The notes below the pieces were generated by a model. The model did no database searches, was not told the origin of the DNA, and worked only from the letters and a program-made list of their open reading frames with translations. The position numbers and the translations under genes are program-made. From Dyella sp. ASV24 (GTDB taxonomy: Bacteria; Pseudomonadota; Gammaproteobacteria; Xanthomonadales; Rhodanobacteraceae), in NCBI RefSeq assembly GCF_016428905.1, contig NZ_JAELTQ010000006.1, positions 1-64,000 of the forward strand: a stretch of DNA of 64,000 nucleotides, given 5' to 3'. Of the stretch, positions 29,264 through 45,691 are shown one piece after another; positions within the stretch are counted from its first letter, which is position 1, and each line of letters begins with the position of its first letter.

Positions 29264-32200
29264 TCACAGGTCGACGCCGATACCTGCACCGACCGTGGTC
29301 ATGCCTGCCGTCGCGGCACCACCGAAGTTGATGTGCACCTTGTCGCCTACAGACGTTGCGTAGCCGACTGCCACTGCGGACTTACCACCTTGGTAGCCCA
29401 CACCAGCTGCGAGGCGGCCGTTGCCCGTTGCGCTGGCAGATGCGGCTCCCATCTGCGACATGGCGGTGGCCATCGCTCCACTGCGGTTCACTTGGATCTT
29501 CATGTCACGGAATCGGTCGTCAACCGAGCGCGCAAACGTGTTCAGTCCGGACTGCAGATTTGTCATCTGCTGGTTCGTGTAGCCGTTAGCGGTGTTGATG
29601 GCCTGCTGCACCGCTGCGTCCACCTGGCCGACGTTCGCGGCATCTGTCGTCGCGGTACCGGCGGCAACGTTTGTGATCGCGCGCTCGGCGCCAGAGGCAC
29701 CTACAGAGACGGTGTTGGCGCGATTGGCGACAGACCCACTGCCGACCGCCACGGCATTCTGTGCGTCGACCGTTGCGCCCTCGCCCACAGCCACCGAGTG
29801 ATCGGCGTTGACCGTCGTGTTAGCACCGACCGCAACGGAGTGGTCCGCCACGGCCTTGATCTGAGCATTGCTCCCCACGGCGGTGGAGTAGTCAGCTGCA
29901 ACATTAGCCTCACTTCCTACGGCGGTATCGCCATTGCCCGCGGCGAAGCTTGAAGAACCAAGAGCCGTGGCGTTCATGCCATTCGCGGAAGAACTTCCAC
30001 CGACAGCTACCGCGTTCGTATTCGGCTGAGTCTTTGCCGGAGTTCCGGTATCTCCAATCGACGAACCAGCGGCGAGCGAGCTCTCCATCGCACCCAGGCG
30101 GTTGCTGTTGCGAGACAGGACGGTGTCGATGGCGGACAGAGCGTCGGCAACGTTGTTGTATGTCTGACCTTGCAAGCGATAGCTCGGAGGGACAAAGGTG
30201 CCGAACCCAATGGATGCTCCGCCGCCAAGCCATTCACCGATGCTGCTGAGGCTGTAGCCCGCCGTCTGCTGCACCGACAAGAGTTGGCCAAGGTTCACGG
30301 CGTCTGTCGTGGCGGTACCAGCGGCTACGTTGCCAATGACGGTGCCGACCTTTCCGCCCAGCTCGACTCGCCCCTTTCCCGCGTCCGTGTACCCAACGCC
30401 GAGCGTGGACCCGGATCCCACCATGCTCGCTACAGCATCAAGCTGTGAGCGATTCACTGCATCGCTCGGTGCTTGTCCATCTGCAACGTTTGTCAGACGG
30501 ACGGACGTCCCCACGTTGCCAAACGAAATGGCGGAGTGCGACGCATCGGCGTACTGAACCGTATTTGCTGCCGCCTGACGGACCTGACCGACGTTGGCCA
30601 CGTCGGTGTCGTCCATGCCGGCGGCGACATGTGTGATTCGTGTGTCCGCACCAGCATGTGTGGCGTCGAAGACGCTACCAACCGAATCAAACTGGAGCGA
30701 GCTGCTCTGCAGGCTGCTGAGATCCCGGACCACACCCGCGATTGATGTCTGCGTAGCGGCCAAGTTGATATTGGTCGCATGGAGCTGCGAGCCATTCACG
30801 GCATCTGTGCTCGATGACGTCACGGCGCCGGACGCGACGCCCGTGACCGTTCGGTCGCCCGCTGTCCCAGCGACGCTCACGACGGCACCGTCGATTCCTG
30901 CGCCAACTGTAATAGGCTCCCCAGCAGCGGACTGCCGGACAATGCCGATACCCGAACCAGCAAGCTGCGTGTTGATTGCCGACACATCTGCTTCGACGTG
31001 GGAGACGCGGCCCGAAAGCGACGACAGTCCGCTCGCCTGAGTGCTGATGGCGTCCGCATTGGTGGTGAGCGCCGCGTCTACCTTGCCCAGCGCTTCGCCA
31101 ACAGACGACGCAGCTGCTCCCTGAATGGTGTACGAGGGGCCACTTAGCGTCCCGTCCGCTCTGACCGCTGCGCCGCCACCGAGGACGGTGGCAATCGACG
31201 CAGCCGAGTTGTAGGCCTGCCCGCCGTTGATTGCGTCCGTGCTTCCGGAGCTAAAGGCGCCTGCCGCGATACCGGTGAGGACGCGTGCCCCGGCGCTGCC
31301 GGAGAAATCAACGCTTGTTCCATCTGTGGCTGACCCGACTGTCAGGTTGGCACCCGGTGCGCGCTGCTGGACCAGGCCAACCGACGTTCCGTCGAGCTTG
31401 CCGTTGATTGTCGCGAGGTCAGATTGCAACCGGCCGATGTCACCCTTGTTAGCGGTGAGGCTCGAGTCAAGCGCCGACAGCGACGACCCGACATCGTGGT
31501 AACCGGTGCCTTGCACGGTGTAGGTCGGTGCGGAGAGCGTGGCGTTGGCATCGACAGTAGCTCCGCCGCCGAGCGCTGCTGCTAGGTCGCTCGCGTTGCC
31601 TTGCAATGACCTAACGGTCTGGCCGAGTTCGCTCACGCGAGCGCCCATGCCGGTTATGCTCGTCGCTTGGCCAGCAATCGCGGCTGCGTTTGCGGTGTTC
31701 GCCTCGTCGAGAGCCCCCAGCGCGGAACCCACGTCACCATGCGGTGTCCCGCCTATCGAATAGCTAGGCGCGAAAATCGTGCCATCCGGCTTGACCGCTG
31801 CGCCACCGCCAATGACGGTCGCAAGCGACGTAAGAGAGCCATAGATCTGGCCGCCGTTTACCCCGTCAACGCTATTGGCTGCCAGCGCGCCCGCTGCGAC
31901 ATTCGTAAGGCGGCTGCCCATAGGACCCGCGAGCGTGACCGTCGCCCGGGTTGCATCGTCGTAATGCACGGCGTTGGGATCGCTCACGTTGGCCAGCGCA
32001 GTCTGCAGCTGATGCAGATTCACCGCGTCGTACTGCCCCGTGCCGTCGGAGACGTTGATCAAGCGGCGCTGCATATCCTTGTTGCCGAAAGACACGACGG
32101 AGCTTTCCCCTCCGTCGCTCGAGCCACCGCCTATGGCCACTCCGCCGCCGGCCGCAGTGGCTTGGCCACCGATTGCGACACCACCTCCGGCGCCAGAAGC

Positions 32201-34201
32201 CTGAGCACCAAGCGCTACGCCCTGCCAACCCGTGTGGGCCTGGTATCCAATTGAGACGCCACCGTCGCCGCCTGGCTCAACGTAGGTGCCCTGCCCGACC
32301 ATGATCGCCTTATTCGCGTTCACCCCGAAGCCCGCCCTCTGGCCTACAGCAACATTCAAGTCACCGATCATGTTGCCGCCGGCAACAGAGCCCACTAACA
32401 CACTGTTGTTGCTGGTGGCGTTCGTTGCAGCGCCGTTGCCAATGACAACAGCGCTGTCGAAGGTGCCCCGCGCGCCGGCATTGGTACCAAGCAACTGGCT
32501 CTGGTTCGCTGATGTCCCTTGGCCCGCCTGGTAGCCGATCACGTCGCTGAGACTCAGCGTTGTCGCACCCATCGCCACTTGGTAGCCGACGAGAGTTGAA
32601 TCGACGACCTTCGCCGCTCCGTTGCCGGCGTTCGTTCCCAGCGCTGTAATTCCGCCGCTACTTCCCCAGGGGTCCTGCATCGTGGTGGCACCAGCAAGCA
32701 CGCCACTACCGATGGCAGTGTTGTTGCCACCCAGCAACTTTGAGTACGCCTTCTGGCCAACAATGGTGTTGTTATCCGCAAACGGATCAATGGAAATATT
32801 GTCGCCAATGGCGACGTTCTGCTTGGACCCTGCACCCTCCGTCCCAATCGCGACATTGGTGCCAATGGCGAGGTTCGATTCGCCGGTAACAGCGCCCCAT
32901 CCCACAACCGTGTTGTTGTTCCCAGTGGTATTGCCGCCCGGGCGGATTGTCGTCGCACCAGAGCACACGGCGAAATTGAATCCAGCACTGAAGTTGCCGA
33001 GTGGCCCGCAGTAACCCGCGATCACGTTCCAGCCGTACTGGGTAAACCCGGGATTCGCAGCGATAGCAGCATTCATCTGCGCGACGTTCACCGCGTCAGT
33101 GTCCTGCTTGCCCGCAGCGACATGAATCAACTGACGGTCCTGCATAGACGAGCCGATGGAGACTACGTTGTTGCGGCCGTCATCGTTAGACCAGGCTCCG
33201 ATGGCGGTGCTCTGATAGCCCGACGTAGATGCCTGGTAACCCAGCGCGCCCGACTGGTAGCCCGAAGCCTGTGCGTTCATGCCGAACGCGTTTGATCCGT
33301 TTGTGCCTGCCTTTGCGCCCGCGCCGACCGCAGTTCCATCAGTGGCACCGTCACCGGTTGCCGCGTTGTAGCCGATGACGGTGGCATTCGATCCGTTCGA
33401 TACCCTGGCGTTCCCGCCGATGAGAACCGAGTAGCTCGCGGTGCCGTACAGCCCGGCGCTCGACCCGATGACGACGCTGTTCGTGAACTGGCCCATCTGC
33501 CCAGCATTGAGACCAATCAGCTGGGACAGAGACACGTTCGACGCCACGCCCGCCCCCGAGCCAATGATCTGGCTGGACGAGATGTTTGGCGCTCCGGAGC
33601 CTGCCTGGAACCCGATGACAGTGCTTGCGCTAACGCTCTGGGCGTTGTTCGCTGCATTCGAGCCGATGATGTCGGAGATCTGGACGTTCTTTGCCTGATA
33701 GCCAGCGCGGACGCCGACGGCGACGTTATAGCTGCCGCCGGTACTCCCGTTCAGTGCTTCCCACCCGAGAGCGGTTGAGTAGCCAGCAAGACCCGAACTC
33801 AGGACCCCGTTGCCAAGGCCGGTATTGGCGAACCCTTGGACGTTGATGTTGTTACCGACGAGCACGTTCCAGTCGGCCGTGGTGCTGCCAGAATTCACCA
33901 GGGAGCTGATGTTCTGCCCAAGCAGGATGTTATTGCTGCCGGAGGCAGTCAGCGTGCCGCCGATGAGCGTGTTGTTGGTCCCATCGGTGCCGGACGCCTG
34001 GACCACCACCGATGCGTTGCTGCAGAGGGCGAAGTTGAATGTACCGCCGACGTCCGCGCACTGTCCGAGCGTCACATTGCCATTGGCATCTGGCACGCCC
34101 GCGCCTGCCACAGTTCCAGTGTCCACCGTCCCTCCTTGTGCCATCGCGTTGATGGCAAGAAGAACGGACACGGCGAGAATCGATCGAGCGAAAGTGTGCA
34201 T
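29264..34201 (-). CDS. Trimeric autotransporter adhesin (YadA family)
   Basis: The protein is 1645 aa from the ATG at 34201 (MHTFARSILAVSVLLAINAMAQ, a signal peptide). The N-terminal half is built of YadA/Hia-type head repeats (NNTLIGG, SYNVAVGVRAGY and similar). It is duplicated: GQCADVGGTFNFALCS and YCGPLGNFSAGFNFAVCS each begin a similar block. The middle has repeated neck/stalk units (DAVNGGQ, RLTNVAAG, SLSALD). The C-terminus has AVGSNAQIKA-type head repeats, a coiled coil with NTFARSVDDRFRDMK and a YadA anchor of about 70 residues ending GAGIGVDL. It should form an outer-membrane trimer mediating adhesion. The final residue is Leu rather than the usual aromatic. Confidence 0.9.
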   Translation of the reverse strand: MHTFARSILAVSVLLAINAMAQGGTVDTGTVAGAGVPDANGNVTLGQCADVGGTFNFALCSNASVVVQASGTDGTNNTLIGGTLTASGSNNILLGQNISSLVNSGSTTADWNVLVGNNINVQGFANTGLGNGVLSSGLAGYSTALGWEALNGSTGGSYNVAVGVRAGYQAKNVQISDIIGSNAANNAQSVSASTVIGFQAGSGAPNISSSQIIGSGAGVASNVSLSQLIGLNAGQMGQFTNSVVIGSSAGLYGTASYSVLIGGNARVSNGSNATVIGYNAATGDGATDGTAVGAGAKAGTNGSNAFGMNAQASGYQSGALGYQASTSGYQSTAIGAWSNDDGRNNVVSIGSSMQDRQLIHVAAGKQDTDAVNVAQMNAAIAANPGFTQYGWNVIAGYCGPLGNFSAGFNFAVCSGATTIRPGGNTTGNNNTVVGWGAVTGESNLAIGTNVAIGTEGAGSKQNVAIGDNISIDPFADNNTIVGQKAYSKLLGGNNTAIGSGVLAGATTMQDPWGSSGGITALGTNAGNGAAKVVDSTLVGYQVAMGATTLSLSDVIGYQAGQGTSANQSQLLGTNAGARGTFDSAVVIGNGAATNATSNNSVLVGSVAGGNMIGDLNVAVGQRAGFGVNANKAIMVGQGTYVEPGGDGGVSIGYQAHTGWQGVALGAQASGAGGGVAIGGQATAAGGGVAIGGGSSDGGESSVVSFGNKDMQRRLINVSDGTGQYDAVNLHQLQTALANVSDPNAVHYDDATRATVTLAGPMGSRLTNVAAGALAANSVDGVNGGQIYGSLTSLATVIGGGAAVKPDGTIFAPSYSIGGTPHGDVGSALGALDEANTANAAAIAGQATSITGMGARVSELGQTVRSLQGNASDLAAALGGGATVDANATLSAPTYTVQGTGYHDVGSSLSALDSSLTANKGDIGRLQSDLATINGKLDGTSVGLVQQRAPGANLTVGSATDGTSVDFSGSAGARVLTGIAAGAFSSGSTDAINGGQAYNSAASIATVLGGGAAVRADGTLSGPSYTIQGAAASSVGEALGKVDAALTTNADAISTQASGLSSLSGRVSHVEADVSAINTQLAGSGIGIVRQSAAGEPITVGAGIDGAVVSVAGTAGDRTVTGVASGAVTSSSTDAVNGSQLHATNINLAATQTSIAGVVRDLSSLQSSSLQFDSVGSVFDATHAGADTRITHVAAGMDDTDVANVGQVRQAAANTVQYADASHSAISFGNVGTSVRLTNVADGQAPSDAVNRSQLDAVASMVGSGSTLGVGYTDAGKGRVELGGKVGTVIGNVAAGTATTDAVNLGQLLSVQQTAGYSLSSIGEWLGGGASIGFGTFVPPSYRLQGQTYNNVADALSAIDTVLSRNSNRLGAMESSLAAGSSIGDTGTPAKTQPNTNAVAVGGSSSANGMNATALGSSSFAAGNGDTAVGSEANVAADYSTAVGSNAQIKAVADHSVAVGANTTVNADHSVAVGEGATVDAQNAVAVGSGSVANRANTVSVGASGAERAITNVAAGTATTDAANVGQVDAAVQQAINTANGYTNQQMTNLQSGLNTFARSVDDRFRDMKIQVNRSGAMATAMSQMGAASASATGNGRLAAGVGYQGGKSAVAVGYATSVGDKVHINFGGAATAGMTTVGAGIGVDL

Positions 34202-34224
34202 CGGAGGGGCTTCAAGTAGGTGGG

Positions 34225-35322
34225 TTAGAGCTGGGCGCGCAGGCGTTGCAGGGCTGCGCGGGCCTTCCCGCTGCCGAGTTCTGCGGCTCGCTTGTTCCAT
34301 CGCGTGGCCTTGGCCAAGTCGACAGCCTGGCCGGCCATGCCGTACTCGTAGAGGGTGGCCAAGTTCTCCGCGGCCACGGCGTTTCCGTCCTTCGCGGATG
34401 TTTCGAGCAGCGCGATGCCAAGACGGGCGTCCTGCGGAACGCCCGTACCGTTGAGGTACATCGCGGCGAGGTTCGCGCGCGCACTGCTGTCGCCCATCGA
34501 CGCCGCCTGCCGCATGAAGGTGACGGCGCCGTCGTAGTCGCCCATCGCCACGGCCGCGAGGCCGCGCTGATTGAGGTCTGCCGCGTTGGGCGGGGTCGGT
34601 GCGGCCTTTTGCGTGAGGCGGGCTACTTCGGCTTCCAGCTGTGCGATGCGCGCGTCTTTCGCAAGCAGCTGCTGGGACACGCTGTCCGAGGCGGCCGTCG
34701 GTGCTACCGCGGTGGGTTGGACCGTGGGAACCACCACCGGCGCGCGCAGCGGGTCGGCGTGTTGTGGCAGCTCGTAGCGAATCGGGGTGGCGCTGCTCAC
34801 CGCCGCTGGCGTCGGTGCCAGTGCTTCGGGTGTAGGGCCCTCGGGCTGCAGTCGATTCAGTGCTTCGCGTGCACCCAGGTGGCCCTGAACGGCGGCAAGC
34901 GAGAACAGCCTGATGGCTTCCTGCTGGTGGCCTTTCCTTTCCACCTCACGCGAGGCCAGCCAGTAGGCGGCCGCCGCGTCACCGCCGTCGGCGGCCACCC
35001 GAACGAGCGCCTCTCCCCGGCGGACGTCCAGCGGCAGGCCTTGGCCAGAGGCATAGAGGTACCCAAGGTGCCAGCATGCCGCTGAGTCGCCATCGGACAC
35101 GTAGGGGGCGAGCAATTCCTCGGCGCGGTGAGCATGGAGCTTTGCCGACGCGGGATCAGTGCCCTGCGCCATAGCCTCCCGCGCTTCAGCCAGGCCCTCT
35201 TGGCGCGGGGAACCCGCCGAGATCGGTGGGACTGCGGCGTCCGCTTCGTTGAGGAAAGCGCTTGCACGCGCGAAGCCCGGCAACGACAGAGTGATTGCCA
35301 AGGCGAGCAGTGTTTTCCGCAT
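34225..35322 (-). CDS. Sel1-repeat protein with signal peptide
   Basis: The protein is 365 aa, with a signal peptide MRKTLLALAITLSLPGFARAS. Helical repeats of the Sel1/TPR type occur near residues 80-150 (AACWHLGYLYASGQGLPLDVRRGEALV, AAAYWLASREVERKG) and 245-340 (ARANLAAMYLNGTGVPQDARLGIALL, NAVAAENLATLYEYG). They are separated by a Pro/Ala/Thr-rich linker and a short coiled coil with LLAKDARIAQLEAEVARL. It ends 23 bases before the adhesin gene and is probably co-transcribed. A role in adhesin assembly or periplasmic scaffolding is inference. Confidence 0.85.
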   Translation of the reverse strand: MRKTLLALAITLSLPGFARASAFLNEADAAVPPISAGSPRQEGLAEAREAMAQGTDPASAKLHAHRAEELLAPYVSDGDSAACWHLGYLYASGQGLPLDVRRGEALVRVAADGGDAAAAYWLASREVERKGHQQEAIRLFSLAAVQGHLGAREALNRLQPEGPTPEALAPTPAAVSSATPIRYELPQHADPLRAPVVVPTVQPTAVAPTAASDSVSQQLLAKDARIAQLEAEVARLTQKAAPTPPNAADLNQRGLAAVAMGDYDGAVTFMRQAASMGDSSARANLAAMYLNGTGVPQDARLGIALLETSAKDGNAVAAENLATLYEYGMAGQAVDLAKATRWNKRAAELGSGKARAALQRLRAQL

Positions 35323-38675: not shown

Positions 38676-39380
38676 TTAGAGAACTAGCGAGCGAAAGGCA
38701 TGTTGGTGGAAGGGAATGTCGTCTTCTCCAAATCCGCCACCACCGCCACCACCGCCACCGCCGCCACTGTTGCCGTAGCGGGTGTTACCGCCGTAGTTCC
38801 CACCATCGCCATTGCCACCGCCGTTGCCACCGCGCTGCTGACCACCGCCATAGTTGTCGCCACCGCGCGTTTGGCCACCACCGTTGCCGCCACCGTTTCC
38901 ACCGCCGTAGCCACCCTGGCGCTGGTGGCCGCCATTGCCGTTGCCGTTTCCACCGCCGTTGCCGTGGCGATTGCCGCCGCCGTTGTTGCTGTGCTGCTGG
39001 CGATTGCCGCCGCCATTGCTACGCTGGCCGTCGCCGTCACCCTGGCCACCACCAAGCATCTGCATCTCATTGGCGATGATGTCAGTGCTGAAGCGCTCAA
39101 CACCGTCCTTGTCCGTGTACTTGTCAGTGCGCAGCGACCCTTCGACGTAGATCTGGCGACCCTTCTTCAAATACTCGCCAGCGATTTCAGCCAAGCGGCC
39201 GAACAGCTTCACGCGATGCCACTCGGTGCGCTCCTGCTTCTCGCCGCTCTGCTTGTCGGTCCAGTTCTCGGACGTTGCGATGCGGATGCTGGTGATCGCA
39301 GTGCCGTTCCCGGTGTAGCGCGTCTCGGGGTCCGCGCCAAGGTTGCCAACGATGATGACTTTGTTGATGCCACGCGACAT
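38676..39380 (-). CDS. ssb: Single-stranded DNA-binding protein
   Basis: The 234-aa protein starts [22 protein letters not shown], the typical SSB N-terminus, with a full OB fold to about residue 110 ([35 protein letters not shown]...). A very long Gly/Asn/Gln-rich linker, about 110 residues with many GGN repeats, follows. The C-terminus has the acidic GEDDIPF tip, but it is followed by [10 protein letters not shown], so the tip is not terminal. SSB coats single-stranded DNA and recruits repair proteins through that tip. The ATG at 39380 has an A-rich leader with GAGGAA. Confidence 0.9.
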
Positions 39381-39945: not shown

Positions 39946-40749
39946 TCAATCCTTCTTTCTTCCCTTCTTCGGCTTCGGCTGGTAGCCATAGAAGGCCCAT
40001 GCCTCCGGGTCGATCTTCATCGGCCGCGTGATGACCGCCGGGTGCGTTTCGACGTGGTAGCCGTGATGGTCGAGCTGACCGTGCCGGATCAGCGTCCACA
40101 GCATTGAGATTCCCAGCATGGCCACCTGCTGGTTGATGGGGAACTCCTGCCGGGTAATCGCCTCCTCCATTGAGCACGACGGCTCCTCGCTGTCCACCTG
40201 CTCCATGCTGGCCAGCTCGGGGTAGAGGTCGAACACGTTGGGCAAGCGCAACGGCGCTTCGCAGTCGCCAAGGTGCCCCAGCATCACCTGCCCGGTTTTC
40301 GGGCCGTTGCCGAAGTCGAGCCAGAGCAACCCTTTCCCCGCCTTCGTACCCATCTGGCCGATGGCGGCGCGCACGGCCGCCTTGTCCGTACAGGTCACGA
40401 GAAGGTCCGGCACGCGGTACGTGGTGCGCAACTCGTTCGGAGCGAAGAAGCGATGCTCCGGTTTCCACGCGAAGCCATACGCTTGGTTGATGCGCTGGAC
40501 CAAGCACATGACCTTGGATGCACCTATGTCCGCCTCGTAGAAGCGCTGACGCCCCACGTTCGCGCGCCCCACGGTGTCGCCATCCATCAGCGTCACGTCA
40601 AACCCCGGATGCCCGAGCGCCATGAGCGTGTGCTGAAGGCGCGCCAGCCCTTCCGCAAAGTGGCTACCAGTGCCACCCAGACCTACCACGGTGACACGGG
40701 TGCGCTCGCTGCCAATCAAAGACGTGGGCGCTGGAAACACGTTCGACAT
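39946..40749 (-). CDS. PRTRC system ThiF-family (E1-like) adenylyltransferase
   Basis: The protein is 267 aa from the ATG at 40749, which overlaps the PRTRC A stop (ATGA). GLGGTGS at 23-29 is the nucleotide-binding loop. LMDGDTVGRANVGRQRF (54-70) is the E1/ThiF signature of D.D.V...N..RQ, in which the Arg contacts ATP. A later VTCTDKAAVRAAI segment matches the region that binds the partner in ThiF proteins. In E1-like proteins a modifier C-terminus is adenylated and may pass to a Cys; candidate Cys residues are in LGDCEAP and SCSMEE. Here the partners are likely proteins B and C. PRTRC is known from sequence surveys but its function is, to my knowledge, undetermined. Confidence 0.85.
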   Translation of the reverse strand: MSNVFPAPTSLIGSERTRVTVVGLGGTGSHFAEGLARLQHTLMALGHPGFDVTLMDGDTVGRANVGRQRFYEADIGASKVMCLVQRINQAYGFAWKPEHRFFAPNELRTTYRVPDLLVTCTDKAAVRAAIGQMGTKAGKGLLWLDFGNGPKTGQVMLGHLGDCEAPLRLPNVFDLYPELASMEQVDSEEPSCSMEEAITRQEFPINQQVAMLGISMLWTLIRHGQLDHHGYHVETHPAVITRPMKIDPEAWAFYGYQPKPKKGRKKD

Positions 40750-41363
40750 CAGAGCACTCCGAGGCGCGTCAGATCGCCTGACGAAAGAGGAATCAGATAG
40801 GGAGGGCATACAAACCGAATGCACGATTTGAGCGTCTCACGTGATTCGCAGCGCCCAAGAACGACCGCAATGTACGGACCCTCACGGCTCAGATCGGACA
40901 GGTCGTCGGTGGCGGAGAAATACTCGGCGTGCGCGCCGTGGCTGTGCATGTCGATCAGGAGCGACTTGTCGTCGAACACGTCCATGTAGCGCACATGGCT
41001 TCCGCTAGCTGAGAGCACGGGCGGTTGCACAAGCGTCCAACCATTCGCCCCCCGCACCACGCCCGCAGCCACCTCCTGCGTGCCGTCGCGCAGAGCGATG
41101 TTCGCAAGCTGGCCAAGCCACGAGACATCCAACGGACCGCCGGTTGGGCGCAAGAACTCCTCAGTCGGCCCATAGGGAAGCGCCACTGCCGATATGCGCA
41201 GACGGGCGTGGAGCGCCTCGCTGCGAACCTCCAGATACACTCCGTCCGCCGCCAAGAGGAATCGCTTGCGACCGACTGCCAGGTCGTCCAGCGACCCGAA
41301 TCGCGGAATCGGAATGGGAGGACACACTGCGACGAGCACGTCGTCGCGCTTATCAGTCGTCAT
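40749..41363 (-). CDS. PRTRC system protein A (JAB/Mov34-type metalloprotease)
   Basis: The 204-aa protein carries a JAMM metal site: LLIDMHSHGAHAEYFSATDDLSD, with H140, H142, S150 and D153 in the HxH...SxxD order. JAB proteases remove or mature ubiquitin-like modifiers at isopeptide or peptide bonds. The N-terminal half is beta-rich and less conserved. The gene lies between PRTRC B and ThiF and overlaps ThiF by ATGA, indicating translational coupling. The intact site suggests an active enzyme. Confidence 0.85.
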   Translation of the reverse strand: MTTDKRDDVLVAVCPPIPIPRFGSLDDLAVGRKRFLLAADGVYLEVRSEALHARLRISAVALPYGPTEEFLRPTGGPLDVSWLGQLANIALRDGTQEVAAGVVRGANGWTLVQPPVLSASGSHVRYMDVFDDKSLLIDMHSHGAHAEYFSATDDLSDLSREGPYIAVVLGRCESRETLKSCIRFVCPPYLIPLSSGDLTRLGVL

Positions 41364-41373
41364 GGCGCGGCCC

Positions 41374-42147
41374 TCAGTGGTGATCCGAGGGCTTGCCGAC
41401 CAGCCAGTCTTTCAGGCGCACGCCCAACGGTGCGGGTCGATCTTCAGGGAACGGCTGATTCACACCGTCAAGCTTCGCCCAGAAGTCGCACACGTCCTGC
41501 GTGACACCCTGCTTGTCCGCTTGCAGCGCGTGGCGATTGTTCGAATGGGTGAAGGCGGTGTCGAAGATCACCGCCTCCCACTGTTCCATGTCCGCCAGCG
41601 TGCAGCCGAGTGGCAGAACCGCGTCGCCCGTGCACACTCGCCCATCGGCGTAGATGTTCGGTAGGGCCGACTGCATCAGCTCCGTCTCGCCGGTGGGACG
41701 CGTCGCACCATCCCCGGCGAACGAAGCGATGTAGAGAGTGCGCTCGACGACCTTGAACACGAGATTCGGCCAGACCACGTTGAGGGTCTTCGGGTTCCCC
41801 TCGGGGTCGCGGACGTGCATCGCGCGCTGGGTGGATGGCCACCACCAGACGAGGTTGTAGGGGTCTTTGTAAAGCAGGTAGTCGGGGAACACCGTCGCTT
41901 CTGTGATCTCGTCCAGACGGGACAGGAGAAGCTTGATGACTTCGGCCTCATCAGCGCGGGTCAGCGGGCTGCCTGGTCCAATGATCGGAGCACCGCTCAC
42001 GTCGGTCACGGTGTGCGACGTAACCAGCTCCAGGGTGTTGGTGTGGGGGCGGCAGTGAAAGAGCAGCGCGAGCTTTGTTGCGATGGACTTGGCGGCGCAG
42101 TTCTTGAACTGTTCCTCAGATGCGGTCGATACGAGGGCCTTGGGCAT
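41374..42147 (-). CDS. PRTRC system protein B (E2-like)
   Basis: The protein is 257 aa from the ATG at 42147. The segment LPNIYADGRVCTGD (162-175), followed by MEQWEAVIFDTAFTHSN, resembles the E2 core (HPN...G..C......W.......), with C172 in the place of the catalytic Cys. A preceding beta region (VWPNLVFKVVERTLYIASF) fits the E2 meander. Protein B has been regarded as E2-like in comparative work on prokaryotic ubiquitin-like systems; the motif match here is my reading. It overlaps gene F by 32 bases. Confidence 0.75.
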   Translation of the reverse strand: MPKALVSTASEEQFKNCAAKSIATKLALLFHCRPHTNTLELVTSHTVTDVSGAPIIGPGSPLTRADEAEVIKLLLSRLDEITEATVFPDYLLYKDPYNLVWWWPSTQRAMHVRDPEGNPKTLNVVWPNLVFKVVERTLYIASFAGDGATRPTGETELMQSALPNIYADGRVCTGDAVLPLGCTLADMEQWEAVIFDTAFTHSNNRHALQADKQGVTQDVCDFWAKLDGVNQPFPEDRPAPLGVRLKDWLVGKPSDHH

Positions 42148-43444
42148 ATTCAAACTCCACGAGGTAGCTGATGGCGGCAATTGCGGCTGACGCACTGATA
42201 ATTGCCGCCTTCGCCACAGCCAAAAGTTCGCTCGGTTTCTTCATGCTGCTCGGCGCGAGGTGAACCGCATGGGCTTCCTCGCCATGCCCCTGCATCGCGT
42301 GTTCATAGAGTTCGTCCAGTGCGCATTGCGTTGGGGTGATCGTGGCGTAGAACGCCATGCCGTCCGCGTGGTCGCGTATCACCCGGTCGATGCGCGTGCG
42401 CTCCGTCGCGTGCACGGCTTCCGCAACGGCGTTCAACCCCTTCAGCAATCGCGCGCCCGCCCCTCGCTTCGGCAGAGGCTTTCGGTTGGCATCAGCCGCT
42501 CGGTCAGCGGCCTTTCTGGCTGCGCGGCGAAACTTCAGGATTTCACGCAGATTGTCCCGGTCGATGTCGTCAGGGCCACCCCATCCCCAGCAGTCGGTCA
42601 GGCCCTCCAAAGCGTCGGCGTCATACGACGGCTCGCTTCCCTCCCACGTCACCTTTTGCTCAAGGTCGCTCAGACCTTCGTCCATCGAGCCAAGAACGTA
42701 ATTGGCGGCGTGCTGAGTCTCCATCATTGTCAGACCATGCCCGCCTGCGGAAATGTGGTCCCACAGGCGATGCACCTCGGCGTAGAGAGCCGGTTCAGTC
42801 GCAGGATTCACCGGGAACCCAACGAAAGGCGTGTCATCCATCAACACCACGATGCCGTCGCCCACGTCGCCCTCGCTATTGCTGAACGCCCCGTCGATGG
42901 CATAGCTGTCCTTCATGCACGCGAAAGCTCGGTGCAACGGCGCGGGCAGCACGTCGTAGCAGCTATAGACCTTCTCGGGATGAGGAATAGCGGCTTCCGT
43001 GCAAGTGCGCTCGAAGAACCTCGTCCAACCTCGCATGGCACATTCGGCCAGGTTCTGGTCCGCGCCGGACTCAACGGCTTCGGTCACCTCCTCCGCCGTC
43101 AAGTCACCCGACAGGTGGAACGCGCGCAGCCATGCCGCGAGCCCGTCCACGACCTGCTGCGTGAGTACCCTAACGTCCTTCGTCGCCTTTAGCGCCTTGC
43201 GCGGCAGCGCGGGAACCTCGGGCAGGGTTGCGTGCGCGGCCATGAGTGCGAACAGTCGATTGCCCCGCTGACGTAGGGCGCGGTCCACGTCACTCGGCTT
43301 GACCACGCCCGCGTGCAGGGCCTTGATGACCGTGCGTGCAGCCGTCGCGCGAGCGTTGTCTGAGACGCCACTGAGGACTTCCGAGGACATGCGCAGCGTG
43401 TGAACGTATGCGCCTGCGTCGAGGCGGGGGATCGACAAGAGCAT
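42116..43444 (-). CDS. PRTRC system protein F
   Basis: The 442-aa protein starts 3 bases after the PRTRC C stop, which implies coupling. It opens with MLLSIPRLDAGAYVHTLRMSSEVLSGVSDNARATAARTVIKALHAG. A helical body and a C-terminal hydrophobic segment (AVAKAAIISASAAIAAISYLVEFEYA) follow, the latter long enough to be a membrane helix. Size, order and context match the PRTRC F family. No catalytic motif is recognised. Confidence 0.75.
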   Translation of the reverse strand: MLLSIPRLDAGAYVHTLRMSSEVLSGVSDNARATAARTVIKALHAGVVKPSDVDRALRQRGNRLFALMAAHATLPEVPALPRKALKATKDVRVLTQQVVDGLAAWLRAFHLSGDLTAEEVTEAVESGADQNLAECAMRGWTRFFERTCTEAAIPHPEKVYSCYDVLPAPLHRAFACMKDSYAIDGAFSNSEGDVGDGIVVLMDDTPFVGFPVNPATEPALYAEVHRLWDHISAGGHGLTMMETQHAANYVLGSMDEGLSDLEQKVTWEGSEPSYDADALEGLTDCWGWGGPDDIDRDNLREILKFRRAARKAADRAADANRKPLPKRGAGARLLKGLNAVAEAVHATERTRIDRVIRDHADGMAFYATITPTQCALDELYEHAMQGHGEEAHAVHLAPSSMKKPSELLAVAKAAIISASAAIAAISYLVEFEYAQGPRIDRI

Positions 43445-43447
43445 GAT

Positions 43448-43861
43448 TTACACCAAGGGCAGATAGGCGGACTTGACGGGCGAAGGGGCTTCCTCGGCGA
43501 TGTGACGGCAACGGTCGAACACCGCCTTCCATGCGGAGGTTCGGGATACCTCCTGCGGCGTACCCGCCCAGTTGCTTAGGCGCGCAATGGTGTCCGCCAC
43601 GCGCTTCTTCTCGCGGCTGCCCGGTGCGCCCTTGGTCTGCACCGTGGGCTTGCGGATCGAGTAGACGAGCGCACCAGCTTCCTCGCTCGGCTCGCCGAGC
43701 GTGGCGTTCGCGAGGTAGGGATAGTTCGGGACGAACGCGGCCAGCACCTGCTCAGGCGACATGCTCGGGTCAATGTCCTCCAACGTCGTGCCGGTCGGGA
43801 GACGGAATCGGCGCGGCAGGCGCTGAATTTGGGAGAGCGTGGGGTCGATGGCGGTGTTCAT
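43448..43861 (-). CDS. PRTRC system protein C with C-terminal extension
   Basis: Residues 14-78 (LPRRFRLPTGTTLEDIDPSMSPEQVL...YPYLANATLGEPSE...LVYSIRKPTVQTKG) fit the short PRTRC C family, which usually ends about there, at roughly 65-75 residues. Here another 59 residues follow (APGSREKKR...SAYLPLV). PRTRC C is a candidate ubiquitin-like protein in this system; if so, the TKG sequence at 76-78 would be the place where a modifier tail might be exposed after cleavage. That is inference. It overlaps gene E by ATGA. Confidence 0.7.
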   Translation of the reverse strand: MNTAIDPTLSQIQRLPRRFRLPTGTTLEDIDPSMSPEQVLAAFVPNYPYLANATLGEPSEEAGALVYSIRKPTVQTKGAPGSREKKRVADTIARLSNWAGTPQEVSRTSAWKAVFDRCRHIAEEAPSPVKSAYLPLV

Positions 43862-44463
43862 TCTTCGGTCTCCTCCTCGGTGTCCTGATCGGTGCTTTCG
43901 TCCAACGACTCCGTCGCGGTTTCAGCCGGATCGGCCTCGGAGCTTTCTTTGTTGCTGGACGATTCGTTGCTGGTCGCGTCCGCCGCAGCCGGTGCCGTCG
44001 CCGCCGCGTCGGCCGCGACACTGAACAAGTCCGCTGCCGGCGGTGCGGCAGGTGCCGGTGCCGCTGCGGTGGTCTTGGCGGGTGTCGAGGCTTTGGCGGG
44101 CTTCACACCCGGCTTGGGCTTGTTCTTCGCTTCCGCCGCTGCCTTCGCTGCTGCCTCCTTGGCTTCGGCAACCTTCTGGCGATATGCCTCGATGGCCGTC
44201 AGCGCCGGTTGACGCTCTGCGTCGTACAGCGCGATGGCGGAGGCCATCTGATCGTCGAGGTCGGCGTCCTGGGGCGCGGTGATGACAAAGGGCAGCGCGA
44301 GCACTGCTTGCAGGTGAGCGAGTTCGTCGTCGTTCGTCTCCGCCTGCATGTCGGCCAGCTTCGGAATGACGAGGAGGCTGAAGCCCTTGTCGGTCGGCTT
44401 CAGCGTGATCGTGACCTCCGACTGCCCCTTGAGCAGCGGCTTGAGAGAGTTGAGAAAGGACAT
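43858..44463 (-). CDS. PRTRC system protein E
   Basis: The protein is 201 aa from the ATG at 44463 (MSFLNSLKPLLKGQSEVTITLKP). The first 100 residues are a folded region with GFSLLVIPKL and LPFVITAPQDADLDDQMASAIALYD. An Ala/Lys-rich coiled coil (YRQKVAEAKEAAAKAAAEAK) and a highly acidic Ser/Glu/Thr tail follow. This order matches PRTRC E. It is the first PRTRC gene in the transcript, with 78 bases before it. Function unknown. Confidence 0.8.
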   Translation of the reverse strand: MSFLNSLKPLLKGQSEVTITLKPTDKGFSLLVIPKLADMQAETNDDELAHLQAVLALPFVITAPQDADLDDQMASAIALYDAERQPALTAIEAYRQKVAEAKEAAAKAAAEAKNKPKPGVKPAKASTPAKTTAAAPAPAAPPAADLFSVAADAAATAPAAADATSNESSSNKESSEADPAETATESLDESTDQDTEEETEE

Positions 44464-44541: not shown

Positions 44542-45636
44542 TCAGGCGGCTTGGCGCGCCTCGCCCTTGATCTTGATTTGCGCGAGCGTGCAGTCGTCAA
44601 CGGACACGTCATCGCGCTCGCCCTTGTAGACGGGCTGGTACAGCGATCCCCCCTGTCTCGCGAGGTAGAGATAGATCACCTCGACAAGCGCACCGACTGC
44701 GGGCACCTGGTGGTTCGGCGGAATGGTTACGTTGCCGATGTCGATCCAGGTCTGCCCGTCATGGACTTCGATGCCCACGCTGCGCTTAGTCGGATGGACG
44801 CTGCACACGCGCACGGTGGCAGACTCGACGAACTTCACCTTGAGCGCGTCGCCATCGGACTTGCTGATGCCGGCGATGTAGGCAGCAGAACCCCGCTTGA
44901 ACACCACGCCTTCGGCACCGCCCGCCTTGAGCGCTTCGTAGGTTCGGCGCTTGGACGCGGTGAACGTCGTCGCGTGGCTTAGCACCAGATAGTCCCCAAC
45001 CTCCCGAATCCACTGTTCCAGCTTCGCGTAGCGCGAGCGGAATGGAAGCTGGCGAATGTCCTCGCCCTGGAACTTGAGGAGGTCGAAAACGTAGATGGTC
45101 TCTCCGACCACCTCACAGTCGATGACGGTCTCACCCGTGAAGTTGAAGACCTTGGATAGCTCGACTGCCTTTGTTGGGACGATGCGCTGCTTGCCCTTCT
45201 TATTGGCGGCGAGGACTTCCCCCGGCCAGAAGCCAATCGGGCAGCGCTCGCCGTCGTGCTTCTCCTGCATCATGTAAGCCGGATCGGCGATCAGCGCTTC
45301 TGAGTCCACCGACGACGGTGCGAGCAGTTGCAGGTCAATCTGAAAGATCAGGTCTTGCATCGAAGCGGCGGGCTTCGGAATCGTGGTGGCCACACCGGCC
45401 GCGTCCGTGCGCTCGGTCTCCACGTACCCCTTGCGGACCTTGCTTTTGGCTACCTTCTCAAGCTCGCGCACCGCGTCAGCGTGGCTGGCGAAGATGCCTG
45501 CCGACCCGTGATTGGATGAACCACCGATGCGCCCGTATTCGGTTTTGACTTCGTGGCCACCGGCGACGGTCGCTATCGAAAGGCCGTAGAACTTGAAGCT
45601 GCCGTTGCTGGTATTTTCGAGGCGGACAGAGAGCAT
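44542..45636 (-). CDS. ATP-dependent DNA ligase with N-terminal WGR domain
   Basis: The protein is 364 aa from the ATG at 45636. Residues 1-75 form a WGR domain (FKFYGLSI...VKTEYGRIGG...), a DNA-binding module seen in PARPs and in some plasmid proteins. The ligase core has motif I QEKHDGER (K126 is the adenylation lysine), motif III IYVFDLLKF, motif IV GVVFKRG and motif V ALKVKFV, then an OB region. It seals nicks using ATP. The fusion of WGR to a ligase, next to PRTRC genes and a methylase-helicase, suggests a role in element maintenance or defence. It could start at 45672. Confidence 0.85.
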   Translation of the reverse strand: MLSVRLENTSNGSFKFYGLSIATVAGGHEVKTEYGRIGGSSNHGSAGIFASHADAVRELEKVAKSKVRKGYVETERTDAAGVATTIPKPAASMQDLIFQIDLQLLAPSSVDSEALIADPAYMMQEKHDGERCPIGFWPGEVLAANKKGKQRIVPTKAVELSKVFNFTGETVIDCEVVGETIYVFDLLKFQGEDIRQLPFRSRYAKLEQWIREVGDYLVLSHATTFTASKRRTYEALKAGGAEGVVFKRGSAAYIAGISKSDGDALKVKFVESATVRVCSVHPTKRSVGIEVHDGQTWIDIGNVTIPPNHQVPAVGALVEVIYLYLARQGGSLYQPVYKGERDDVSVDDCTLAQIKIKGEARQAA

Positions 45637-45691
45637 TCGCGGGCACCATGTTGCTGGGAAGTGACCCAACAATGGCCCGGCGGTGCGATTC

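Follow-up and report, generated by a model that had tools for sequence, protein, structure and literature searches.

What the six-gene PRTRC cassette of a Dyella contig does is the question raised by positions 39946-44463 of a 64,000-nucleotide stretch of Dyella sp. ASV24 (contig NZ_JAELTQ010000006.1; the whole stretch is hereafter called the window). Iyer et al. predicted in 2006 that an operon type with such genes, type 6d, is a ubiquitin-like protein (Ubl) conjugation system, and that its JAB protein processes the Ubl and removes it from targets (PMC1779556). Our analysis leads us, with a probability of roughly 0.7, to read the cassette as a plasmid-borne Ubl conjugation pathway of this type, in which the protein C would be a precursor cut by the protein A. 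New in this analysis are the relation between the tail of C and the presence of A, and the candidate precursor and protease defined with it. The open-licence papers that we searched for PRTRC and phage polyubiquitin contained no description of this tail pattern; they likewise held no experimental assignment or functional study of PRTRC, in line with the original prediction, made from the letters of the window, which knew of no assigned function. The six frames are the following, in the order E-C-F-B-A-ThiF.

43858-44463, minus strand: E, 201 amino acids, with an N-terminal domain, a long Ala/Pro/acidic linker and an internal AADLF (D145); TIGR03741, 36.4 bits.
43448-43861, minus strand: C, 137 amino acids, with a Ubl domain to G78 and a 59-residue C-terminal extension; Pfam Prok_Ub, 1.1e-10.
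42116-43444, minus strand: protein in the F position, 442 amino acids, no NCBIfam PRTRC_F match.
41374-42147, minus strand: B, E2-like, 257 amino acids, with Asn164, Cys172 and His201; Pfam Prok-E2_D, 6e-29.
40749-41363, minus strand: A, DUF2016 and JAB metalloprotease, 204 amino acids, with His140, His142, Ser150 and Asp153; Pfam DUF2016, 9e-17, and Prok-JAB, 8e-6.
39946-40749, minus strand: ThiF, E1-like adenylating enzyme, 267 amino acids, with GLGGTGS at 23-29 and the candidate catalytic Cys192; TIGR03736, 221 bits.

All six frames were found on the minus strand with the E1, E2-like and JAMM motifs intact, as originally predicted, and the residue numbers given for B (C172) and A (H140, H142, S150 and D153) were correct; the second E1 motif had been given as D.D....N, whereas its real spacing is D.D.....N, with five residues. 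The frames overlap by 4, 32 and 1 nucleotides or sit 3 and 10 nucleotides apart, a spacing that appears operon-like. When compared with the PRTRC models of NCBIfam (TIGR03734-03742), the window shared the gene order, and both ThiF (221 bits, cut-off 145) and B (TIGR03737, 152 bits, cut-off 131) scored over the cut-offs. It differed in that A (TIGR03735, 99.7 bits, cut-off 101.8) and E (cut-off 37.95) fell just under, by about 2 and 1.5 bits, C fell 11 bits under (TIGR03738, 34.9 bits, cut-off 45.95), and the protein in the F position gave nothing against TIGR03742 at E 10. F is assigned by position alone; it is 32% identical to the protein in the same position on a Rhodanobacter plasmid. The cassette had been called complete, which holds for the gene order. 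Independently of the PRTRC models, Pfam identified ThiF, DUF2016 with Prok-JAB, Prok-E2_D and Prok_Ub. The usual ParB member had been reported missing from the window, and indeed none adjoins the cassette; the best match in the source genome (112 bits, cut-off 279) is on another contig (C302), and a further match reached 11 bits.

Relatives were collected from plasmid, genome and viral sequences. Among 72,556 plasmid records, 374 matched in the E1 search and 332 in the search with a B protein; the scan of genome contigs yielded 76 loci, scans of viral contigs yielded 7, 3 and 47, and phage records yielded 4. The genome scan used a profile made from the ThiF alignment of a 6-locus subset, an alignment of 14 diverse loci being too divergent, and 30 annotated stretches were fetched around related loci. 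The cassette is thus present on plasmids and in phages, and in a random genome sample of the class it occurred in 2 of 369 genomes, the source genome included. Four genome loci (L020, L054, L085 and L087) lie on contigs of at least 2 Mb, and therefore not every copy is on a separate element.

Residue conservation was counted over 164 loci, with the locus of Dyella sp. ASV21 (L018) omitted as a copy of the window: its E1 protein is identical to that of the window, and, although the coordinates of the contigs do not correspond in a simple way, its source appears to be a very close relative of the window's genome. The loop glycines of E1 and the D, N, R and Q of its second motif were kept in 157-159 of 159 aligned rows, and the candidate catalytic cysteine in 162 of 162 (164 given, 2 gaps). 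The cysteine of B was kept in 147 of 148 aligned rows (152 given, 4 gaps) and the downstream histidine, H201 in the window, in 136 of 152 rows, and the JAMM pattern was present in 124 of 125 A proteins, the single miss being a 21-bit match in L117. Because they are near-invariant across the collected loci, the E1, E2-like and JAMM motifs are not chance. On three viral contigs (L097, L098 and L099), the conserved Asn and His of the E2-like protein are replaced and its Cys is unaligned, with E1 and the Ubl retained.

The evidence for a precursor comes from the residues that follow one glycine of C. Over the 14 diverse loci, this glycine (G78 in the window) was the one invariant column of C, which ends there in 9 of the 14, and it was conserved in 33 of 34 loci of a wider set. 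Residues after the Gly position were then scored in 101 loci that have both C and ThiF. Among the loci with A, 61 of 70 have such residues, the window included (58 of 67 when three hand-scored tailed rows were left out), as against 0 of 31 loci without A, 30 of which end in Gly; the remaining one, L095, ends GTKA, with Gly replaced by Ala and nothing beyond, and was counted as having no tail. The rows scored by hand as tailed were L102 (84 residues), L103 (2 residues) and L115 (fused); L116, with seven residues past its last repeat, was also scored by hand, and L084 and L097-L099, in which the model match stopped short, were hand-scored as ending in Gly. A naive Fisher test gave p = 3e-18, an overstated value, as many loci are close Burkholderiales relatives. 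A whole-genome search for PRTRC_A found none in 22 genomes or records covering 25 of the 31 loci without A, the other 6 being viral contigs that were not searched whole; as a control, the same search detected 14 of 14 known carriers, 10 of them over the cut-off. This one-sided relation between C tails and A was observed directly, as were the gene content and the conserved residues.

Phage loci displayed the same glycine with highly variable tails. The genome of Burkholderia phage BgVeeders33 includes genes for E, C, B, A and ThiF, and among 47 related viral-contig loci (L120-L166) C was found in 46, all of which have A. The last seven residues up to the Gly are identical in these 46 loci, whereas the tails beyond it comprise 0 residues (2 loci), 1-3 residues (3 loci) or 60-100 residues (41 loci) and share 8-19% ungapped identity over tail positions 1-25, a measure that understates similarity for unequal lengths. 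The tail of C differs widely even between close relatives of this type. In Bacillus phage vB_BauM_KLEB27-3 (L116, OM634661, 694-6726), one gene consists of four 57-residue Ubl repeats, each ending VKG; the first three VKG directly precede the next Met, and the last is followed by the seven-residue tail. The gene passes the PRTRC_C cut-off with four stretches, and within 6 kb after it lie E2-like (weak, E 0.001), JAB (PRTRC_A, 3e-7) and E1-like genes. We regard it as a putative polyubiquitin-like precursor of a phage.

Cyanobacterial and Bacillota loci showed two further arrangements. In Nostoc a tail domain is joined to C, whereas in Oscillatoria the same domain is a separate frame, and the Oscillatoria Ubl ends GSKGVK, with a stop two residues past the Gly. 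Directly after the Oscillatoria cassette (L103, 6823-10020), on the opposite strand, are genes for a DncV-like nucleotidyltransferase and a SAVED-domain protein. The JAB proteins of two Bacillota plasmids (L115, 6692-7789, and L167, 5572-6969) have an apparently Ubl-like N-terminal region, with KKG as its last residues. The same stretch of about 260 residues was matched without interruption in 14 of the 28 further plasmid records. A profile comparison of the N-terminal region with Ubls gave a weak match (probability 11%, E 0.003, compared with 0.1% and E 0.5 for a reversed control), and we regard a Ubl-JAB fusion as no more than probable. No relative of the L115 E1 or of the L115 and L167 fusions was found in the viral contigs. 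Because the tail/A pattern, the tails of the BgVeeders33 type, the tandem Ubls and the split in Oscillatoria point the same way when taken together, A is likely to be the maturation protease of C.

Structure prediction and profile searches were in keeping with the assigned activities to differing degrees. The AlphaFold model of C, computed from 34 sequences, had a mean predicted local distance difference test (pLDDT) score of 82, with block means of 93-97 over residues 11-70; it contains strands 17-20 and 26-28, helix 36-42, strands 59-61 and 64-70 and then helices 81-97 and 102-124, the extension past G78 being predicted as two helices. In a Foldseek search with this beta-grasp model, nearly all of the 50 matches listed were to ubiquitin, NEDD8 or variants of these, with probabilities reaching 0.99 and a lowest E of 0.037 (template modelling score about 0.5 on the target); none had E below 0.001. 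A profile of C gave one chance match against PDB sequences. C had been put forward as a possible ubiquitin-like protein, and the predicted fold, the conserved Gly and the relation to A all support this. The model of B (pLDDT 86) has helix 64-76, strands at 91-143, strand 156-159, Cys172 in the loop that follows and helix 184-195. This predicted order of helices, strands and Cys is in keeping with the E2 layout described by Iyer et al., a beta-meander with flanking helices (PMC1779556). A profile of ThiF matched NEDD8-, UBA6- and ubiquitin-activating enzymes in the PDB first, ahead of ThiF and MoeB. The A protein, searched as a single sequence, gave one chance match.

Several results weigh against the conjugation pathway or against the trimming of C by A. 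Foldseek of B against the PDB found no E2 among the best 50 of 731 matches, and the B profile gave three chance racemase matches as its only hits to PDB sequences. The E2-like assignment made originally therefore depends on the Pfam family Prok-E2_D, on the motif with the conserved C172 and on the analysis of 2006; the layout agrees with it, and neither search confirmed the E2 fold. When the E1 of the window was searched as a single sequence, the sulfur-carrier enzyme MoeB was its sole PDB match. The tree of the loci has 6 changes per trait for tail and A and provides two to three well-supported independent pairs, with which a sign test cannot reach significance. Finally, A occurred together with a tail-less C in 9 of 101 loci and in 2 of 46 phage-type loci, which suggests that A must have a further role besides tail trimming, such as stripping C from targets. 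On balance, the original reading as a protein-conjugation system is favoured by the comparative evidence; it is not new, having been predicted in 2006.

In the pathway that we propose, C would be translated as a precursor and cut after G78 by the JAB protein A, releasing the modifier (residues 1-78) and a tail of 59 residues. ThiF would adenylate the freed Gly and take the modifier onto C192; B would receive it on C172 and, perhaps assisted by F, transfer it to a target lysine, and A may also take the modifier off again. E would be an adaptor with a flexible tail. We infer the chemical steps, the target and the benefit of this pathway; the residues needed by each proposed step are conserved across the loci.

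The surroundings of the cassette bear on what such a pathway might act on. A 22-kb segment that includes the cassette is matched over 98% of its length by plasmid p1 of Dyella sp. BiH032 (80% identity), so that the window very probably derives from a plasmid of a Dyella-like bacterium. The cassette lies among genes for a single-stranded DNA-binding protein (SSB), a RecG-like helicase, a WGR/ligase-like protein and an SNF2-type helicase, two of which flank it:

38676-39380, minus strand: SSB, downstream of the cassette; Pfam SSB, 6e-38.
44542-45672, minus strand: WGR-domain and DNA-ligase-like gene, directly upstream of E; Pfam DNA_ligase_A_M and WGR.

Elsewhere in the window are a TraD-type coupling protein and a TraI_2 protein (a putative helicase according to Pfam), the family of which we take to be that of a relaxase; the context of the cassette is one of replication and conjugation genes. 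The contig also carries a second dnaN at 73.4-74.5 kb, the other dnaN being on contig C307. The upstream gene (44542-45672) encodes a WGR domain fused to an ATP-dependent DNA-ligase-like domain, at a place where many relatives have ParB, and a WGR gene occupies the same position in Dyella p1 and in a Rhodanobacter plasmid. DDIPF is the usual tip of SSB. In the window SSB (38676-39380) it is internal and followed by ten residues ending FRSLVL; the SSB of Dyella p1 ends in the same way, that of a Xanthomonas plasmid also continues past DDIPF, and that of a Rhodanobacter plasmid terminates in DDIPF. Farther away, positions 29264-34300 encode a 1678-residue protein with the YadA stalk repeats of trimeric autotransporter adhesins.

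Other functions could be served by these genes. In a sulfur-carrier pathway, ThiF would adenylate C and a Gly thiocarboxylate would deliver sulfur to a small molecule or tRNA, B not being a conjugating enzyme. The ThiF/MoeB resemblance, including the sole match of the single-sequence search, the unconfirmed E2 fold of B and genes of the phosphoadenosine phosphosulfate reductase family in the fetched stretches of five plasmids all speak for it. However, the best solved relatives of the E1 profile are NEDD8- and ubiquitin-activating enzymes, the conserved Cys of B lies in an Asn..Cys-x-Gly loop, and no metabolic enzyme was present among the cassette proteins scanned, so that we consider this pathway quite improbable. 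Hardly more probable is a plasmid-carried anti-phage defence module like the type II cyclic oligonucleotide-based anti-phage signalling system (CBASS) and Bil. The E1/E2/JAB chemistry does resemble that of CBASS Cap2/Cap3 and Bil, and Iyer et al. raised, as a speculation, a part in addiction or in shielding against invasive replicons (PMC1779556). Yet the cassette proteins scanned included no cGAS/DncV-like nucleotidyltransferase (CD-NTase) or effector, PADLOC matched a generic E1 domain only, phages themselves carry the cassette, and its neighbours in the window are the SSB, helicase and ligase-like genes; moreover, the Bub operons are themselves described as lacking demonstrated phage protection (PMC13373217). 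The suggestion that the pathway protects its element, possible as it is, was thus left unsupported by the PADLOC result, by carriage on both plasmids and phages and by the replication and conjugation context.

A role in the stability of the element, in which C would mark ParB or another partition protein and E would recruit ParB or a different partner independently of a sliding clamp, is rather unlikely, if less so than defence. Of the 11 loci in one fetched group, 10 have a PRTRC-type ParB ahead of the cassette; the main set of 113 loci contains 70 with such a match, and in 6 of the 47 phage-type loci ThiF is immediately followed by a weak ParB-family match (60-68 bits). Nevertheless, the window cassette has no adjoining ParB, a search of all of Dyella p1 gave none at E 1e-5, and none adjoined the cassette in the fetched Bacteroidota, Acidobacteriaceae, cyanobacterial and Bacillota loci; the copies on contigs of at least 2 Mb are a further point against it.

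The tail of E offers another candidate link to replication. E has a flexible Ala/Pro/acidic tail, and a short hydrophobic motif closes it in many lineages. The clamp-binding consensus is given as QL[S/D]LF or QxxLF (PMC12309361). We examined 140 E proteins found by the model, grouped in 43 clusters, with expectations taken from shuffles; apart from the published Q..LF consensus, the patterns were picked after the tails had been viewed. Q-x-[SDTNG]-[LIM]-F occurred in 5 of 43 clusters (0.15 expected; three viral contigs, one Nostoc and one Ahniella), Q..[LIM]F in 6 (0.53 expected) and [SDTN]LF in the last ten residues in 12 (0.14 expected). With three cyanobacterial genes (L102-L104) counted as E because of their position, and with the annotated frame used for L015, these counts became 8, 9 and 15 of 46, with 0.19 expected for the strict motif. 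The Bacillota JAB proteins of L115 and L167 carry QTDIF and QGDLF near the N-terminus. The fetched stretches of 7 loci from three phyla contain the clamp gene dnaN (L004, L011, L102, L104, L115 and the viral L094 and L095), four of these loci being seeds of the search model. A dnaN match was present in 13 of 30 cassette-bearing plasmid or phage records, 8 over the family cut-off, compared with 520 of 72,556 plasmid records overall, a figure from a less sensitive single-dnaN search that is not size-matched.

These findings suggest a lead, namely that E might bring the machinery to the DNA sliding clamp, with replication or partition proteins of the element as targets, a proposal that we hold tentatively and consider unlikely as it stands. 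The E of the window counts against it, as it lacks the strict Q..LF and has the internal AADLF, the E of Dyella p1 having AQDLF. It is quite possible, and among these subsidiary readings the least doubtful, that the C-terminal motif of E is instead an SSB-like acidic tip or some other short linear motif. In many cases an acidic E tail closes with hydrophobic residues (GVDLL or GVDMY, for example), an SSB gene adjoins the window cassette, and most clusters lack the strict clamp motif; on the other side stand the enrichment of that motif over shuffles and the proximity of dnaN to the cassette in three phyla. The broadest form of the clamp proposal is that plasmids and phages carry a clamp-tethered Ubl pathway modifying clamp-bound replication proteins, with a tag matured by its own JAB protein from a variable-tailed or tandem precursor; we regard this as slightly more doubtful than the recruitment of the machinery to the clamp by E.

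The comparison with known systems places the cassette closest to type 6d of Iyer et al. (PMC1779556), with which it shares a JAB protein with an extra N-terminal domain, a separate E1-like gene, a small Ubl with a conserved Gly and an E2-like protein with a Cys and a downstream His. Type 6d also has a largely helical protein with conserved polar residues, the place of which is taken in the window by F. The corresponding features in the window are DUF2016 with Prok-JAB in A and the adjacent ThiF, C172 and H201 in B, and the Ubl domain of C with its conserved G78; judging from its position, DUF2016 may be the JAB-N domain of that study. The difference is that the Gly is C-terminal in type 6d, whereas in the window G78 is not the end of the reading frame and 59 residues follow it. 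The relation between tail and JAB protein, such phage tandem Ubls and the clamp-like motif do not appear in the sections of that paper on this operon type. Tandem bacterial Ubls are known from the poly-Ubl operons of type 6e. Phage KLEB27-3 also has tandem Ubls; it differs in that its repeats score as PRTRC_C and the adjoining E2-like protein keeps its Cys. Bil (BilABCD) and Bub share with the cassette a Ubl, E1, E2 and a JAB-type protease and are classed as known or putative immune operons. BilA is reported to be processed by BilC, which exposes its Gly (PMC11354881); it has two Ubl domains, whereas C of the window has a single Ubl with a non-Ubl tail and stands on a plasmid-like backbone. 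Type II CBASS likewise has E1, E2 and JAB activities, and ThiF matches the E1 part weakly; the window differs in its separate E1 and E2-like proteins, its dedicated Ubl and the lack of a CD-NTase in the cassette. Cap2 fuses E1 and E2, which agrees with the PADLOC model name E1-E2, and no CD-NTase with a fused E1-E2 Cap2 was found among the cassette proteins scanned.

The precursor pattern points to G78 as the cleavage site and to A as the protease, and it gives grounds for expecting covalent chemistry. With this candidate site and protease, the prediction of 2006 can be put to a direct test in vitro. If the clamp link is true, ubiquitin-like tagging would be tied to the replication control of bacterial mobile DNA, and the clamp-tethered pathway would be a bacterial mobile-element counterpart of PCNA and replisome ubiquitination.

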